In this document: positions 3,143 to 57,176 of the stretch, piece after piece | How the letters are laid out: each line of letters starts with the position of its first letter | Numbering within the stretch: the stretch's first letter is position 1 | Origin: Planococcus sp. SK3692 | GTDB lineage: Bacteria > Bacillota > Bacilli > Bacillales_A > Planococcaceae | DNA length: 64,000 nt | Assembly (NCBI RefSeq): GCF_028890485.2 | Contig: NZ_JARCHV010000001.1 | Span: 1,154,698-1,218,697 of the forward strand | Direction of reading: 5' to 3' | Made by a program: the position numbers and the translations under genes | The notes under the pieces: model-generated | What the model was told of the DNA's origin: nothing | Seen by the model: the letters and a program-made list of their open reading frames with translations, nothing else | Databases searched by the model: none

Positions 3143-4133
3143 TGTAGAATTTGATATGGAAGCGGGTGCCTTCATTTGGTGTGCTCGCGACTTCGATGTC
3201 GCCGCTTTGGCTCGTGATGATGCTATAGGCCATGGCGAGGCCGATGCCGACCGAGTCGTCGCCGGCGTTTTCGCCTTTATAGAAGCGCTTGAAAATATAT
3301 GGCAAATCTTTTCTGGAGATGCCACTGCCGTTGTCTTCGATGTGGATGTCTGTGTACAGCGCGTTTTCGCCGTAGCGGATGGCGAGCTTGCCGCCTTCCC
3401 CAGTATGTTCAACGCAATTCTTCAAGATATTGATGAGCGCTTCCGTCGTCCAGTTGAGGTCGCCGGTAAACGCCGCTTCTCTATCTCCTTCGATCTGCAA
3501 TTCCTGCATTTTGATGTCCATCGGGATGAGCAGCGGTTCGACCGCTTTTTCAATCAGCGTGGACACCGGGATGCGGTCTTGTTTGAATGAAATCGTGCCA
3601 GCGTCAATCTTCGACAATTTGAGTAGCGACGCCACGAGCCAGTCCATGCGCTCGAGCTGCGTGTGGAGATTGCGGATGAATTCGCTGCGCTTTGCGTCAT
3701 CCAAGTCACTGTCGCGAAGTAGATCTGCCATGACCATCATCGACGTGAGTGGCGTTTTTAATTGGTGGGAAATATCCGAAATGGCGTTCGTCAGCTTGCC
3801 TTTATCTTCAGTGAGCAGTGCGCCGTGTTCCGACAACATTTTCGTCACTTTGTAGATCTGGGTTTTGAGTAAGCTCAGCTCGCCTTCGCGGTTATCGCGC
3901 ACGTCGAGCTGAAAATCGCCGCTGCTGATTTGTTGCAGGAAACCGGACAAGCGCTCAATCTCCCGGTAGCGCCACCAGGTGAAGATGATCACTGTTGCAC
4001 TCAGCAATAGCGATACGCCGAGCACGAACCACGTGGCCGTATAGGAAACAAAGATGGCGGAGAGAATCGTACCAAGTGCGCTGATTGCGATGAGCGTGGC
4101 GAATAGCCAGCGGATTTCACGGTTGCGCAGCAT
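3129..4133 (-). CDS. Sensor histidine kinase with short extracytoplasmic loop
   Basis: A 334-residue membrane kinase. Two hydrophobic helices (about 10-30 and 35-53) are separated by only a few residues, so there is almost no external sensor domain. A HAMP-like linker follows, then the HisKA box DISHQLKTPL with the phospho-acceptor H123, and an HATPase domain with N-box (NILKNCVEHT) and G-boxes (DNGSGI, GIGLAM). Kinases with this topology often receive their signal through a partner ABC transporter, and here a MacB-like exporter lies close by; the partnership is inferred. It starts two bases after the response regulator stop, in one operon. Confidence 0.93.
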   Translation of the reverse strand: MLRNREIRWLFATLIAISALGTILSAIFVSYTATWFVLGVSLLLSATVIIFTWWRYREIERLSGFLQQISSGDFQLDVRDNREGELSLLKTQIYKVTKMLSEHGALLTEDKGKLTNAISDISHQLKTPLTSMMVMADLLRDSDLDDAKRSEFIRNLHTQLERMDWLVASLLKLSKIDAGTISFKQDRIPVSTLIEKAVEPLLIPMDIKMQELQIEGDREAAFTGDLNWTTEALINILKNCVEHTGEGGKLAIRYGENALYTDIHIEDNGSGISRKDLPYIFKRFYKGENAGDDSVGIGLAMAYSIITSQSGDIEVASTPNEGTRFHIKFYKQVI

Positions 4134-5107: not shown

Positions 5108-5273
5108 CGACTCATCCCTTTCGTGTAGACCGATTTTGTTGCGGTAGTATATTCTACGGTCGAACGGGAATTAAGTTTCATTTCTTCATAAGAGGTCTGA
5201 CGTCCAGTGTATATTCTCTTGCATAAACCTTATTTATATAGTAAGCTGTTCAAAGTAAATACCCCATAACCTA

Positions 5274-5338
5274 TCTGTATAACCTTAAGAATACGGCTTA
5301 AGGGTCTCTACCAGGAACCGAAAAATCCTGATTACAGA
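5274..5338 (+). ncRNA. Purine riboswitch aptamer, adenine type
   Basis: P1 is TCTGTA (5274-5279) with TACAGA (5333-5338); P2 is CCTTAAG with CTTAAGG (5283-5289, 5297-5303); the J2/3 core GTCTCTACC follows, then P3. The base at the specificity position (xpt residue 74) is U5332, in GAUUAC, which in known purine riboswitches selects adenine rather than guanine. It precedes pbuE, the same gene as the B. subtilis adenine riboswitch. Confidence 0.9.
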
Positions 5339-5377
5339 AAGCGATCACTCGTTTTCTGTAATCAGGATTTTTTTATT
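5321..5377 (+). terminator. Riboswitch-controlled terminator of pbuE
   Basis: Bases 5321-5340 pair with 5352-5371, followed by T. The left arm contains the 3' strands of aptamer P3 and P1, so aptamer folding and termination exclude each other. Adenine binding should prevent termination (ON switch), as known for pbuE. Confidence 0.88.
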
Positions 5378-11522: not shown

Positions 11523-12080
11523 ATGACCCTGAATAATTTGATCCAAAAACGCATGCTTGTGCTGATCGGGCTTGTGCTCGCCGCAGCGTTAATCATTGCG
11601 CTCGTATGGAGTTCGGATACCGCCGATACCGCAGAACAGGCCGTGCGCGATGGCGACGATGACCTTGTCTTGACGCCGGTCTATGAATTAAACGGCCGCG
11701 CCTTGTTTTTCTTTATCCGCGGCGATGATAATTTCGGAGCAGCGACGGCCACGGAATCCTGGTTCGGCTGGCGACTCGACACCCGAAGCGAAGCGACCAT
11801 CCCCTCACTCGACGACCCGGATCGCATCGACAGCTATATGAGCAGCGACGGCTTGGTCTATGGGCTGTTTGACCCCGCTGACGGACGCCACGTGCAGATC
11901 GGCGAGGTACCAACTGATCAACTATTGCTCGGCGAGCGCTTCCCTATTGAATTAATAGAAGAAACCGGCCTTGCCGGAAAAGCGGTCTGGTTTATCGAAA
12001 ACGCACCTGAAGAACGCCCGATCCCGCTGCAATTGCTCGATGCAGACGGACAGGAATTGCAGCGTCTGGAAATGTATTAA
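11523..12080 (+). CDS. Membrane-anchored extracytoplasmic protein, unknown function
   Basis: A 185-residue protein with a single N-terminal membrane helix (about 12-30) and an acidic soluble domain that should face outward. I see no catalytic motif or known family. The soluble part has several short beta-like segments (VLTPVYELNGRALFFFIRG). It is a single gene between two strong terminators. The ATG has AAGGGGAAATGG upstream. Confidence 0.75.
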   Translation: MTLNNLIQKRMLVLIGLVLAAALIIALVWSSDTADTAEQAVRDGDDDLVLTPVYELNGRALFFFIRGDDNFGAATATESWFGWRLDTRSEATIPSLDDPDRIDSYMSSDGLVYGLFDPADGRHVQIGEVPTDQLLLGERFPIELIEETGLAGKAVWFIENAPEERPIPLQLLDADGQELQRLEMY

Positions 12081-12083
12081 AAG

Positions 12084-12112
12084 AACCGCCCAGATCCGTC
12101 TGGGCGGTTTTG
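12084..12112 (+). terminator. Intrinsic terminator
   Basis: Perfect 11-bp stem AACCGCCCAGA/TCTGGGCGGTT followed by T-rich sequence. Confidence 0.85.
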
Positions 12113-12214
12113 TTATGTATTAGTGTTTCTACTATATTGAGTAAATAAAGTAGATTGTGAGGGTTTTAGATTGGAAGTGTGTTGTTGTTCAGTTTTTCTT
12201 CTTAAATATGAGTC

Positions 12215-12300
12215 GCTGCCTTGCTTTGGGTTGGCCTTTGGCAGCAAGCCAGGAAGAACGCCTGTCTTACTGCGTCAGCTCACCCTTGACGCTAGGCAGC
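12215..12300 (-). repeat. Family B rod element B1
   Basis: An 86-nt element read on the minus strand, beginning GCTGCC and ending GGCAGC. The inner stem is GCAGTAAG with CTTGCTGC (one G-T), the apical stem CAGG with CCTG, and the loop CGTTCTT. The apical pair differs from B2/B3 (CAAG/CTTG) by a compensatory change. It is joined by a linker to the long family A copy c; together they fill most of the gap 12113-12763, where I see no gene. Confidence 0.8.
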
Positions 12301-12514
12301 TGAGAGATTTCACTGCATGCTGACTGTTTAGGTAGATCTGCTTCTATAATCAGTTACCGACTAGCGGGGGAATCGCTTTCCGAGACTAGCATCAAGTACA
12401 TTGGATCTAGCGTTGAAAAGCTTCGAAGTGGACCCGAACTTTTTGACTTCCATATTATATTCAAAATGACTAAGCTACAATGTTTGATGCATTTCTAAAT
12501 TCTCTATCGTGTGT

Positions 12515-12700
12515 ACAGAAGAAATTTCCTTCCTCTCTAAAACTAGAGACGGAGTGGAAGAGGGCTGACGCCTGTGGGACCGCGCGGGCTGGCGAGACAA
12601 ACGTGCCACGCTCTTTGGCACGTTGGCTCAACACCCGCCCCACGGCAAGCAGCCCTCTGCAACGCAGTCGAAAAGCGAAAGCTTTTCCTATCACTTCTTT
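12515..12700 (+). repeat. Family A repeat, long copy c
   Basis: The long form of family A, flanked by a segment shared with copies d and e (AAATTTCCTTCC ... CTAGAGACGGAGTGGAAG) and ending with CAACGCAGTCGAAAAGCG. Perfect arms AGAGGGCTG (12560-12568) and CAGCCCTCT (12650-12658) close it. The variable interior carries hairpin AACGTGCCA/TGGCACGTT. Short open frames across it are by-products of the repeat. Confidence 0.8.
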
Positions 12701-12763
12701 TTCTATAATGCCTCTACTATTCATACGAACTAAAATCTTCACTCTTCATTTAAAATCACAACT

Positions 12764-13504
12764 TCAAAGCTTTTCGGGCTTTCTTTCAGCTTCCGCTTTC
12801 CCGATTGAGAACCCGTCGAACAAGCGGCCGCCGTAAGGCTCGAGGACACTTTCGACAAATTCGATGATATGCGCCGTTTCGTCGGTCCGGTAAAAATGTT
12901 CGAATGCCTCGACAAAACGGACCGCCAGTTCATGGTCATGTGCTTCGAGTGAGCGAATGACCCATTTGGACGAGCCGATCCATTTTTGTTCTGTACGCAA
13001 AATGAATTCGCTCACCAAATCCGAAAGCGTGTTGACGCAAAATAGCCGTTCTTTGCGGTCTTCGCTGCCACGCAAATCGTCCAGCACATCGGTGATGAAA
13101 TAGCGTTTCGTGCGGATCGTATCCGTGCTCCACGCTTCCGGGCCTGCTTCAAGCAAGGCTTTTGCTTCTTGCTGGATGCCTTCCATGATGCCCGAATCTT
13201 TCAAGATAATCCCTTCACTGACCATACGCGGCATGCTTGGCTTCGCGGCTTTTCGGTCTTTCTCAAAAAAGTCCTTATAGGAACTCAGGTTATAGACAAA
13301 TACTTCGATCGGCCAGCCATAAAAAATCATCGATTCACGATATGAACTCATCAAAGTTTCATCGAATACGACAATATCTAAATCCGACGTCGCTGTCTCT
13401 TGCCCGCGTACCACGCTCCCAGCTAGCAGCGCCCCGCGGCAATGGCGGAAATTCGTTTCGACAAATACTTTCGCTGTGTGAATCGGTTCCCAACGCTGTC
13501 TCAT
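12764..13504 (-). CDS. Nucleotidyltransferase-domain protein
   Basis: A 246-residue protein with an N-terminal nucleotidyltransferase core: GSVVRGQETATSDLDIVV gives the GSx(10)DxD motif that binds metal and NTP. The C-terminal half is helical and shows no motif that I recognise. It resembles stand-alone nucleotidyltransferases related to aminoglycoside nucleotidyltransferases; the substrate is unknown. The start at 13504 (ATG) is preferred over a GTG at 13519 because GGGAGAAAG lies just upstream of it. Confidence 0.82.
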   Translation of the reverse strand: MRQRWEPIHTAKVFVETNFRHCRGALLAGSVVRGQETATSDLDIVVFDETLMSSYRESMIFYGWPIEVFVYNLSSYKDFFEKDRKAAKPSMPRMVSEGIILKDSGIMEGIQQEAKALLEAGPEAWSTDTIRTKRYFITDVLDDLRGSEDRKERLFCVNTLSDLVSEFILRTEQKWIGSSKWVIRSLEAHDHELAVRFVEAFEHFYRTDETAHIIEFVESVLEPYGGRLFDGFSIGKAEAERKPEKL

Positions 13505-16017: not shown

Positions 16018-16212
16018 GTGAAATGAAGTGATAGGAAAAGCTTCCGCTTTTCGACTGCGTTTCAGGGGCACGCTTTCCGGAGGGCTCGCATTGAGCCGCT
16101 TCGTCGCTGCGCTCCTGCAGGGTCTCAATTGTCTCGCTGATCCTCCCGGAGTCGGCCCCTTCCACTCCGTCCTTAGTTTTAGAGAGGAAGGAAATTTCTT
16201 CTGTCCAATCGA
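16018..16212 (-). repeat. Family A repeat, long copy d
   Basis: Reads on the minus strand like copy c: GAAATTTCCTTCCTCTC, CTAAGGACGGAGTGGAAG, a GC-rich centre, then CGCAGTCGAAAAGCGGAAGC. The centre contains GGAGGGCTCGCATTGAG and its partner. It is the left part of a composite element that continues through a linker into B2 and B3. The gap 15970-16854 contains only this composite. Confidence 0.8.
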
Positions 16213-16420
16213 TAAAAAAAGGTGATAATTCATCAGGTATTGTAGCTTAAGTCATCTTGGCCATAGTACAGAAGGTGAAAAATCCCAATCCATTCCCAAG
16301 GTTTTCGACTCAAGTTCCAATGTACTTGATACTAGTCTCGGGAAGCGATTCCCCCACTAGCCGACAACTGATTACAGAAGCACAACAATTTAAACAGTCT
16401 ATATGCAATGAAATGTCTCA

Positions 16421-16506
16421 GCTGCCTGGCGTCAAGGGTGAAGCGAAGCCGTAAGACAAGTGTTCTTCTTGGCTTACGGCGGGAGCTCAACCCAGAGCAA
16501 GGCAGC
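16421..16506 (+). repeat. Family B rod element B2
   Basis: An 86-nt element. Nested arms: GCTGCC with GGCAGC; GGGT and AGC with GCT and ACCC; GCCGTAAG with CTTACGGC (perfect); CAAG with CTTG; 7-nt loop TGTTCTT. Single A and G bulges face each other between the two upper stems. Confidence 0.85.
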
Positions 16507-16666
16507 GACTACCATCATGTCACCCAAATCGAATGCCAAAGTAGTTTGACATGCAAACTCTCACTATCTACTTCAAGCTTGTACCAGGAAGCGACTCCCC
16601 CGCTAGCCGGCAACTGATTTCAGATGCAAAACAATTTAAACAGCCTCCATGCAATGAAATGTCTCA

Positions 16667-16752
16667 GCTGCCTAGCGTCAAGGGTGAAGCGAAGTAGTAA
16701 GACAAGTGCTCTTCTTGGCTTACGGCGGGAGCTCAACCCAAAGCAAGGCAGC
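16667..16752 (+). repeat. Family B rod element B3
   Basis: A second copy 246 bases after B2, with part of the linker (CTAGCCG.CAACTGATT) repeated as well, so the unit was duplicated in tandem. The left upper arm has drifted (GTAGTAAG against CTTACGGC), while the outer and apical stems are intact. Confidence 0.82.
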
Positions 16753-16854
16753 GACTACCATCAGCATGCTCAATTAGCACATCGTAATCTCTCCACACCC
16801 AAACCCTAGCTACCTTCATCTACACGCCACCCAATAAGCAAGAAACCACTTTTC

Positions 16855-22486: not shown

Positions 22487-22755
22487 AAATGATAGCAAAA
22501 CAAGTAATTGAAAAAGCTTCCGCTTTTCGACTGCGTTGCAGGTGGATGCTTGAGGCTCGCAGGATGCGAGTCATGCAGCTGATGCGACAGGACGTCGCGC
22601 TTTCAGCTGCCCGTGGATGGGCGGGAATCGAGCCTCCTCTTCGCGCAAAGTACGCGCTCATGCGGGGTCTCTCAAACCCGCTGATCCCTCAGGCGTCACC
22701 ACCTTCCACTCCGTCTCTAGTTTTAGAAGGAAAGGGAATTTCTTCTGTCCACTAG
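22487..22755 (-). repeat. Family A repeat, long copy e
   Basis: Shares its ends with copies c and d (AAGCTTCCGCTTTTCGACTG at the left, the TCCACTCCGTCTCTAG segment at the right). The interior carries hairpins CTCGCA/TGCGAG and a larger stem around GATGCGAC/GTCGCG bounded by CAGCTGA and TTTCAGCTG. The same interior module occurs inverted in copy h. The gap 22387-23405 holds only this composite with B4 and B5. Confidence 0.8.
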
Positions 22756-22960
22756 TTAAAAAATGTGAAATTGCGTCATGTTTTGTCGCGTAAGTCATTT
22801 TTGGTGTAGAGAGACTAATTAGTTCTGATTCACCAATTAGAATCTCGACTTAAGCGTCAGTTTACCAGACCCTATGTCTCGGGAAGCGATTCCCCACTAG
22901 ACGGCAACTTGTTACAGAAGCAGATCCAGCAAATCACACTTCTCTCAGTGAAATCTCTCA

Positions 22961-23046
22961 GCCGCCCGGCGCCAAGGGTGAGCCGACGCAGTAAGACAGG
23001 CGTTCTTCCTGGCTTAGTGCCAAAGGCCAACCCAAAGCACGGCGGC
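22961..23046 (+). repeat. Family B rod element B4
   Basis: An 86-nt copy with outer arms GCCGCC/GGCGGC where other copies have GCTGCC/GGCAGC (T-A replaced by C-G), and apical CAGG/CCTG. The middle stem has GCC/GGC where B2 has AGC/GCT. One mismatch is present in the upper stem. Confidence 0.82.
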
Positions 23047-23254
23047 GGCTATTCCGATGACACTTTAATTGAATACCGGAACAATTCCACTGTTAAACTC
23101 TCACTATCTACTCAAAGATTGCCTCAAAAAGCGGCTTCTCCATTATTCTCATCTACACACCACCGAAAAAGCAGGAAGCGATTCCCCCTCCACCCGACGA
23201 AAAGTATAAATGCACAAACAGATGCGGCAATTTTCATCGCAATGAAATCATTAA

Positions 23255-23340
23255 GCTGCCTAGCGCCAAGGGTGAAGCGAAGCAGTAAGACAAGTGCTCT
23301 TCTTAGCTTACTGCGAAAGCTCAACCCCAAGCAAGGCCGC
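23255..23340 (+). repeat. Family B rod element B5
   Basis: An 86-nt copy with upper stem GCAGTAAG/CTTACTGC, a compensatory change compared with GCCGTAAG/CTTACGGC of B2. The outer arm has one mismatch (GCTGCC/GGCCGC). It lies 294 bases after B4. Confidence 0.8.
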
Positions 23341-23405
23341 GACGACCAATTCGACAAAGCATCTTGATTCCACAAAAAAACCACACCCGCTTGGATGCAG
23401 CTTCG

Positions 23406-40677: not shown

Positions 40678-40809
40678 AATAGTATTCCTCCTGTATTTCT
40701 AGTTTCCTTCTTATTTTACTAAATGAGGAAGGCTGTGGGAAACATTGCGCAAAAAAAGATGTGTGAACTTTTACGCGTCTTTTTGTGTGGTCGAGAAAAT
40801 CAGAAACCC

Positions 40810-40937
40810 GTATCTTCCGAATCTTACCGCTCGCTTTCCGTGGGCTCGCGCCCAAGCCTCCTCGCTCACTACGTTCACTGTGGGGTCTCGGTCGTCTCGC
40901 TAGTCCACTGGAGTCGAGCGGACGATTCTCCAAATAC
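40810..40937 (-). repeat. Family A foldback repeat, copy f
   Basis: Read on the minus strand: GTATTTGGAGAATC at one end and GATTCGGAAGATAC at the other, with GGA facing GGA inside the outer stem; inner arms CCGCTCG/CGAGCGG (40827-40833, 40915-40921). The core carries ACTCCAGTGG, GAGACCCCAC and GAGGAGGCTTGGGCGCGAGC. No gene is visible in the gap 40678-41035. Confidence 0.82.
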
Positions 40938-41035
40938 TCAGATATTTTATTGGTTTTTGGATATAGAGGGTAATATCATTTTTATTCGTAACGAATTATG
41001 ACCTTCTTCAACACTTTGAAAAAGGAAGCGTAAAT

Positions 41036-41590
41036 TCATGCGTCTTTTTCAGATGGCCATTCCGATTTCAGCATGCCGTAGACGGCGTGGTCGACGAAAT
41101 GGTTATAGAGCCATTCCGCTTGGCGGATCACGCCTTCTTCTGTAAAGCCGAGGCGAATCGGGATGTTGCGGCTTTTCTCGTTGCCGACAGCTGCGCGGAT
41201 CTCCACTTTATTGAGCCCGCGTTCGGTTAGCGCGTAATCCGTCAGCGCTCCCGCTACCCTTGTCATGATGCCTTTTCCCTGGTATTCCGTATCGAGCCAA
41301 TAGCCGATATAGGCCGTCTGTTTCGCTTCATTGATTTCATTGAAACCAGCGATTCCAGCCAGTTCACCTTGGTAGACGATCGCGCAATTCAAGCTTTTGC
41401 CGAGCGCGAAACTCTCTGCGCCTGACTGGATGAAGTTTGTCGTATCCTCGACGGTTTTCGTGTGATCGAGCCATGGCAGCCACTCTTTCAGTGCAGCACG
41501 CGAACGGTCCGTCAATTCAAAAATCCGTTCTGCGTCTTGCAGCTCGACCAATTTCAACGCCAACTCTTCATCAATCTTATGTGTAAACAT
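41036..41590 (-). CDS. GNAT N-acetyltransferase, RimL/YdaF-like
   Basis: A 184-residue acetyltransferase. AALKEWLPWLD, YIGYWLDTEYQGKGIMTRVAGAL (acetyl-CoA loop QGKGI) and NKVEIRAAVGNEKSRNIPIRLGF are typical of the RimL-type branch that acetylates ribosomal proteins or small amines. The start at 41590 is chosen for AGGGGG upstream; the frame extends further upstream without an RBS. Confidence 0.9.
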   Translation of the reverse strand: MFTHKIDEELALKLVELQDAERIFELTDRSRAALKEWLPWLDHTKTVEDTTNFIQSGAESFALGKSLNCAIVYQGELAGIAGFNEINEAKQTAYIGYWLDTEYQGKGIMTRVAGALTDYALTERGLNKVEIRAAVGNEKSRNIPIRLGFTEEGVIRQAEWLYNHFVDHAVYGMLKSEWPSEKDA

Positions 41591-41733
41591 TCCGCTTCCC
41601 CCTTTTTTTGAATTATCCATAAGCGTAGCATATCCAGCATCTGACAAGAACTTATTTTTTAGAATCAAAAAGGCGAAATTTTCAGTATTATAGCGTAAAC
41701 TGGAAGAAAAGAAAGCGAACGGAGTGAACCCTT

Positions 41734-41955
41734 ATGTTCCGGCTTTTTATTGTCCTCGTCGCTTTAATGGTCGTGCTCATCATCCTATGCCTCGTCCTAT
41801 TTTTCATTCGCCATAAACCGCATCAACTGCCAGCCCCCCACCACGAAGCGCAATTACTGAAGGAACGCTTTTCACGCGGAGAGCTATCAGAAGAGGAATT
41901 CCGTAAACGCATGAAAGAACTCGAACAAAAACTGACACTGCGCAAAAGCGGATAG
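41734..41955 (+). CDS. SHOCT-domain small membrane protein
   Basis: A 73-residue protein with one N-terminal helix (about 4-26) and a C-terminal SHOCT motif (LLKERFSRGELSEEEFRKR), a short two-helix module found at the end of many bacterial membrane proteins. GGAG is about eight bases before the ATG. Function unknown. Confidence 0.8.
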   Translation: MFRLFIVLVALMVVLIILCLVLFFIRHKPHQLPAPHHEAQLLKERFSRGELSEEEFRKRMKELEQKLTLRKSG

Positions 41956-42050
41956 AATCCCATCCGCTCCAGAGTGTAGAATAAGTTCGCAATCTGCTAT
42001 AAGTCAAAAAAGCTTAGCTTTCCGCATTTAATAATCAATGACCTATCTGA

Positions 42051-42176
42051 GTATTTGGAGAAGTGTTTGCTCGACTCCTGTGGGACTAGCGGGTTTGAGA
42101 GACCCCGCAGGAACACAGTGACGAGGAGGCTCGATTCCCGCCCCACGGAAAGCGAGCAATAAGCTTCGGAAAATAC
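42051..42176 (+). repeat. Family A foldback repeat, copy g
   Basis: Outer stem GTATTTGGAGAAG (42051-42063) with CTTCGGAAAATAC (42164-42176), with GGA opposite GGA; inner arms TTGCTCG with CGAGCAA. The core reads ACTCCTGTGGGACTAGCGGG, then GAGACCCCGCAGG and GAGGAGGCTCG. It lies in the gap 41956-42287, upstream of the Cys-rich protein gene; no other gene is visible there. Confidence 0.85.
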
Positions 42177-42287
42177 GGTTATCAAGAGTTTCTTGGCAGC
42201 CTGTACTGCTAGTTGTTTATTTTCCTGCCAGTCGGGAAATCCAAGGAATAAGCGAATGAACATAATTCTTATGGGAGGTTTTACGGA

Positions 42288-46582: not shown

Positions 46583-46890
46583 TTCACTTTAAAACTGAAG
46601 AAACAATCTTACGCTCTAAAACTAAAGACGGAGTGGAGGGGCTGACGCCTGTGGGACTGCGCGAATGAATAAGTGAAGGGGAGCTGAGCTTATTCATTTG
46701 CGACATATCTGCTTGCAGATATGTCGCAGGCTTTTTTTCTTTGGCACGTTGGCCGGGCACCCGCCTCATCTTCGGGCAGCTGAAAGCGCGACGTCCTGTC
46801 GCATCAGCTGCATGACTCACATCCTGCGAGCCTCAAGCAGCCCCCTGCAACGCAGTCTAATAGCACAAGCTATTCTACTTACTTCTCTTA
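46583..46890 (+). repeat. Family A repeat, long copy h with extra hairpins
   Basis: Ends resemble copies c-e (CTAAAACTAAAGACGGAGTG; CTGCAACGCAGTC). The interior holds AATGAATAAG/CTTATTCATT, a perfect 14-bp hairpin TGCGACATATCTGC/GCAGATATGTCGCA followed by a T-rich stretch, and the CAGCTG-GCGAC module of copy e in inverted orientation. The gap 46436-46972 contains no gene. Confidence 0.8.
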
Positions 46891-57074: not shown

Positions 57075-57176
57075 CTTTTCATCTGCCAGGCGTGTGCCTG
57101 CTGGAATTAGCACCTGACCTAACGGCTGGTTGCTGAAGCGTCATCGGGCCAGTCCCTCGACTTCTCTAGATAAGAA
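57075..57176 (-). ncRNA. SAM-I riboswitch (S box)
   Basis: On the minus strand the conserved S-box segments appear in order: CTTATC, AGAGAAGTCGAGGGACTGGC, CCGATGACGC, CAGCAACC, AGGTGCTAATTCC, and a closing GATGAAAAGG that pairs with the first. Followed by a terminator and yitJ, as in Bacillus yitJ. Confidence 0.95.

Follow-up and report, generated by a model that had tools for sequence, protein, structure and literature searches.

A composite intergenic element, in which a head module A of about 175 bp is followed, after a spacer, by one or several tail units that each join linker k to hairpin B, occurs at three loci of the window, a stretch of 64,000 nucleotides (C4:1154698-1218697) in the 3.54-Mb genome of Planococcus sp. 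SK3692. The element is folded, is present throughout the genus, gains and loses whole units at sites that are mostly vertically inherited, and has inserted at one locus where relatives outside a clade retain the empty site. We consider it probable that it is a BOX-like, non-autonomous modular interspersed repeat, old and resident, whose fold is still maintained. The three loci of the original prediction were all borne out with small coordinate corrections; at the third the composite stood, and A was found to start near 22506, not 22487. The tandem duplication of linker plus B claimed for two loci was found again with periods of 246 (locus 2) and 294 (locus 3), the second unit of locus 3 having its k reduced to a remnant only. 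The features in the window are:

12516-12692, minus strand: A module of locus 1 (nhmmer profile, 148.8 bits; alignment A2)
12308-12384, minus strand: linker k of locus 1, with the GGAAAGCGATTCCCCC hairpin and CTAG (nhmmer)
12213-12301, minus strand: B hairpin of locus 1 (nhmmer; model R1)
16030-16203, plus strand: A module of locus 2 (nhmmer, 173.2 bits)
16337-16412, plus strand: linker k, unit 1 of locus 2 (nhmmer)
16420-16508, plus strand: B hairpin, unit 1 of locus 2 (nhmmer; R1)
16585-16659, plus strand: linker k, unit 2 of locus 2 (nhmmer; tandem period 246)
16666-16754, plus strand: B hairpin, unit 2 of locus 2 (nhmmer; R1)
22506-22747, plus strand: A module of locus 3 with an alternative inner core (two nhmmer pieces around the Bacillaceae-1 match)
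22556-22618, minus strand: Bacillaceae-1 RNA (RF01690) inside A of locus 3 (Rfam, 43.4 bits, gathering threshold 35)
22878-22953, plus strand: linker k, unit 1 of locus 3 (nhmmer)
22960-23047, plus strand: B hairpin, unit 1 of locus 3 (nhmmer; R1)
23172-23187, plus strand: remnant k hairpin (GGAAGCGATTCC, near 23174), unit 2 of locus 3 (read from the sequence)
23254-23342, plus strand: B hairpin, unit 2 of locus 3 (nhmmer; R1; period 294)
46595-46879, minus strand: A module without B (two nhmmer pieces; Bacillaceae-1 at 46765-46830)

Elsewhere in the window, Rfam matched a SAM riboswitch (57076-57176) and a purine riboswitch (5255-5354). Two inverted A-like copies (40803-40958 and 42030-42183), about 1.1 kb apart, enclose two small genes (ORFs 41036-41668 on the minus and 41734-41955 on the plus strand), which we take to be an acetyltransferase-like gene and a further small gene. 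The arrangement could be a cassette bounded by A cores; as an autonomous version of the element it was rejected, since on our reading neither enclosed ORF is a transposase.

One composite used to query the genome found 67 matches. To follow the modules, we built iterated profiles of A, k and B on 36 fetched loci together with the window, which between them scored 45 hits for A, 47 for k and 66 for B. With a covariance model of B (R1), the genome-wide count that had been proposed as a check came to 75 copies clustered into 45 loci. A genome in which A and B lie independently, at random distances and with no shared linker, is not what we found: the modules are on the same strand in all 30 fetched clusters holding both and are regularly spaced. 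A is clearly upstream of B in 29 of these clusters, the two modules abutting or overlapping in the remaining one (L003; one antisense B self-hit in L010 is left out of the layout counts). Spacing between A and the first B has two peaks: 211-217 bp in the subfamily with k, and 162 bp in another, whose linker is unmatched by the k profile. A was not detected in eight of the B clusters, and B is missing from seven A clusters, so A may be an independent repeat that often partners B. Arrays hold one to five B copies in units of about 217-249 bp, and their right ends are ragged, often with a truncated k; flank inspection met no distinct 3' end module. Judged by mechanical ORFs, the gene contexts are 12 convergent, 25 codirectional and 1 divergent, indicating that promoter regions are avoided.

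B is a branched hairpin of about 90 nt, consisting of an outer stem, internal loops and an inner hairpin. In an alignment of 53 sequences (A1), 97.5% of the cells at paired positions were paired, and 90 cells had changed on both sides in comparison with a mean of 23.1 in shuffled alignments, none of the 500 shuffles reaching as high a number, and with 2-12 in versions of the alignment slid out of place. Across all measures the covariation exceeded nearly all shuffles and every slid version which, with the compensatory changes between orthologous hairpins described below, upholds the earlier description of the element as structured. We then pooled 273 units from all loci then in hand, some of them overlapping, and reduced them below 93% identity to 126 sequences, in which 3136 of 3402 cells were Watson–Crick pairs. 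The non-Watson–Crick cells included 103 G–T and 42 A–C, so the folded strand leans to the one reading from A to B, although a good part of this difference comes from two or three pairs. The k hairpin GGGAAGCGATTCCC, with a GCGA loop, had its core matched in 37 of the 47 k copies, and CTAGC was found in 41 of the 47. A forms a long hairpin that shows covariation and whose inner cores can be exchanged; some of these cores match the Rfam family Bacillaceae-1 on the strand opposite to the A-to-B reading. For B, Rfam gave no match at the gathering threshold in the window or 15 loci of the same genome, and none at E ≤ 0.05 in 15 loci of other genomes.

Model R1 matched all 36 Planococcus genomes, with 2 to at least 66 copies each, and none of 24 genomes taken from elsewhere in the class; among 200 genomes drawn from the family, 46 matched, 18 of them in four other genera, where the sequence has diverged while the order of the stems is apparently the same. 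A 26-base pattern of the linker, searched in 84,980 species genomes, matched 82 stretches, and the 80 listed were all from records titled Planococcus. Carriage by plasmids or phages was rejected: only 2 of 72,556 plasmid records matched, both of Planococcus sp. MB-3u-03, and none of 50,697 phage records did. One record of that strain, NZ_CP025126.1 (7,049 bp), is listed as a plasmid and has linker-B units at 3239-3666; it could be a genuine plasmid or a piece of chromosome. Within the one-contig genomes G019 and G009, no B locus among the matches listed (70 of 82 and 80 of 91) lies at 1.32-2.14 Mb and at 1.57-2.33 Mb of contig C1, respectively; these middle stretches are possibly the terminus side, but we do not claim a placement related to replication.

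To see how the sites have been inherited, we located the flanks of 14 loci in five relatives and compared 40 orthologous stretches. At the 12 loci bearing B, 29 of 30 comparisons showed the hairpin at the corresponding position and with its orientation unchanged, the sole exception being L019 in G026, where B has been lost between CTAGCCG and GCGGCG; at the two A-only loci, A was present in 9 of 10. The sites are thus mostly vertically inherited, and what often differs between orthologs is the number of units, which at L008, for example, is 3/2/2/3/2/4. A clean empty-site comparison was obtained at one locus only. L018 is filled in all six genomes of the clade, whereas the 15 assessable genomes outside it (10 of 25 were left out as having only one flank in the locus) have none of the modules and a spacer 138-322 bp shorter, which we interpret as an insertion that preceded the clade's radiation. 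The suggestion that the element is a non-autonomous mobile one is therefore supported for the past alone, as seen at L018; elsewhere the copies stay at conserved positions and change is mostly in unit number. Neither terminal inverted repeats nor a target-site duplication could be demonstrated, and the search for a partner transposase found none. The spacers of the empty sites have diverged too far to be aligned, so no target-site duplication or exact insertion boundary can be read from them. The 12.2-kb locus (window 12080-12764; L069-L078) is a variable spot whose small genes vary from species to species: some relatives have A beside other small genes, e.g. a lipoprotein-like one, some lack both modules, and the type of A core differs between species.

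Dispersed copies within a genome have not been evolving in concert. Among 72 near-full-length units, which provided 31 ortholog pairs matched in array size and index, similarity was 91.8% for tandem units within a locus (n = 44 pairs), 79.9% for paralogs sharing a genome (n = 453) and 80.2% for units from different loci of different genomes (n = 1847). These figures indicate exchange within arrays and none detectable between dispersed loci, and genome-wide gene conversion was rejected, as sharing a genome does not make paralogs resemble each other more closely than copies from separate genomes do. Together with the pairing kept between orthologs, they imply that arrays homogenise internally while dispersed copies evolve independently, the fold being kept at each site.

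The repeat that we favor would thus have a head A, a spacer and tail units made of the small tetraloop hairpin k and the branched hairpin B. Its past spread may have relied on a supplied transposase or recombinase recognising the folded strand, and new insertion would now be rare. Unit number would shift by unequal exchange or slippage within the array, and the fold would be maintained for recognition and occasional spread, or by host use. The strength of the conservation is an argument against this reading. Orthologous copies of B are 85-96% identical and hardly ever differ by indels, considering the near-full-length first B only (the offsets for k are out of register in the subfamily lacking it), in comparison with 90-94% for the flanking gene ends and 56-67% for the 50 nt upstream of k. 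The evolution of B is about as slow as that of the gene ends beside it, and slower than expected of a dead repeat. Among double changes at paired positions of orthologs, 32 kept Watson–Crick pairing and 3 did not, while slid controls kept pairing in 0-2 cases; four comparisons at L008, in which G026 is set against G011 and G019, supply half of the 32, and 16 remain without these.

The slow evolution of B relative to the sequence upstream of k, the pairing kept in orthologs and the excess of G–T over A–C cells on the A-to-B strand would all be expected if the units were host-adapted structured elements, either an RNA or a site on DNA or RNA to which a host protein binds, derived from a repeat and fixed near gene 3' ends. 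We regard this as a serious alternative but an unlikely one. Unit number changes freely and whole B units can be lost, as at L019 in G026; flank inspection revealed no conserved promoter upstream of A; the orientation relative to codirectional genes (17 same, 8 opposite) is not significant (P = 0.11); and some genomes of the genus have just 2-5 copies. It is possible, and we propose it tentatively, that B is a functional structured element of Planococcaceae that was spread as a repeat and then selected for its fold at dozens of gene-end sites, with array length serving as an adjustable dose. If so, B would be an undescribed class of RNA or single-strand binding site with tens of copies per genome.

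As a source of the past mobility, we considered REP-associated tyrosine transposases (RAYTs), under which the copies would be REP- or BIME-type repeats mobilised by the RAYTs of these genomes. The SK3692 genome has one RAYT-type gene (Y1 transposase, NF047646; 80.3 bits against a cut-off of 80), a single-copy gene at L224 4965-5300 (C5:794464-794799). In ten genomes chosen by B copy number, the presence of RAYT split perfectly, and across the 36 Planococcus genomes those with an intact RAYT had a median of 40.5 B copies (n = 20) against 23 in the others (n = 16; P = 0.023, phylogeny ignored), all five genomes with at most five B copies being among the latter. However, the gene is bordered on both sides by a different repeat, the 22-nt TGTCCCTGTGCACCACACAATT, in SK3692, G009, G019 and G026, and the stretch fetched around it contained no A, k or B. 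A GTAG tag on the reverse strand is present at only 14 of 53 B copies and is thus not conserved, and G004 and G024 have at least 66 B copies each with no Y1_Tnp match. As the repeat flanking the gene is another one and the split among the 36 genomes only moderate, we rejected RAYT as the partner and consider this origin very improbable. The search found no other autonomous partner.

The pairing itself could have another cause than selection, namely templated mutation (quasipalindrome correction) in DNA hairpins, which alters both arms at once. Pair 39-49 behaves as this would predict, being A–T in 63 and G–C in 62 of the 126 sequences with one intermediate. Such correction could add to the retention of the fold, but it leaves unexplained why indels are so few and why the unpaired positions of B diverge so little (0.144 per site, against 0.096 for the paired), and the same internal loops and an A–G mismatch are apparently kept in other genera; as the explanation of the pattern we find it very improbable. 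Most improbable of all is that the copies are classical MITEs, on whose terminal inverted repeats a DDE transposase would have acted: they are short, intergenic, numerous and free of ORFs, and L018 is a past insertion, but inspection of the flanks showed neither terminal inverted repeats nor a target duplication at the conserved ends, modular tandem units are not MITE-like and orthologous persistence is high.

Among known systems, the element shares features with several. Full-text searches naming Planococcus or Planococcaceae together with repeat terms turned up no description of the composite. Bacillaceae-1 RNA (RF01690) is found at the gathering threshold inside some A copies, but it spans only about 65 nt in a single A variant and lies on the strand opposite to the A-to-B reading, with k and B outside it. 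The bcr1-bcr18 families of the Bacillus cereus group, as described in the consulted parts of PMC3446304, are intergenic repeats, some of them MITE-like and some structured and transcribed; set beside them by description alone, our element is likewise an intergenic repeat of Bacillales, whereas those parts describe no composite A-(unit)n build. With BIMEs and REPs and their RAYTs it shares palindromic intergenic arrays (PMC3733652, consulted sections). In a sister-genus genome (G177, C3:43197-44747), neighbouring B-like hairpins of an array switch strand, as BIMEs do, whereas the arrays of SK3692 run head to tail. The sparse GTAG tag and the other repeat around the RAYT gene set our element apart from those systems, and B, at 90 nt and branched, differs from the 20-40 bp given for REPs in those sections. 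The closest parallel is the BOX element of Streptococcus pneumoniae, boxA-(boxB)n-boxC, which the portions of PMC3049150 that we used present as a widespread composite intergenic repeat of ordered modules, folded if transcribed, with slow transposition and a tandem module whose number varies between strains. Our element has the same ordered modules, one of them (k-B) in variable tandem number from one to five, and by analogy would work as a BOX-type composite repeat; the likeness is one of architecture alone and we claim no homology. Its modules are larger (A about 175 bp, unit about 217-249 bp), and a separate end module like boxC was not found. Compensatory changes are seen here between species in orthologous hairpins, a test that does not appear in those portions of PMC3049150. 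BOX-like composite repeats are usually taken as parasites, with their structure assessed inside a single species. In the present element, compensatory changes can be traced across species at the same sites, along with orthologous copies and dated insertions, allowing a direct test of whether a fold is kept for the spread of the repeat or for its host.
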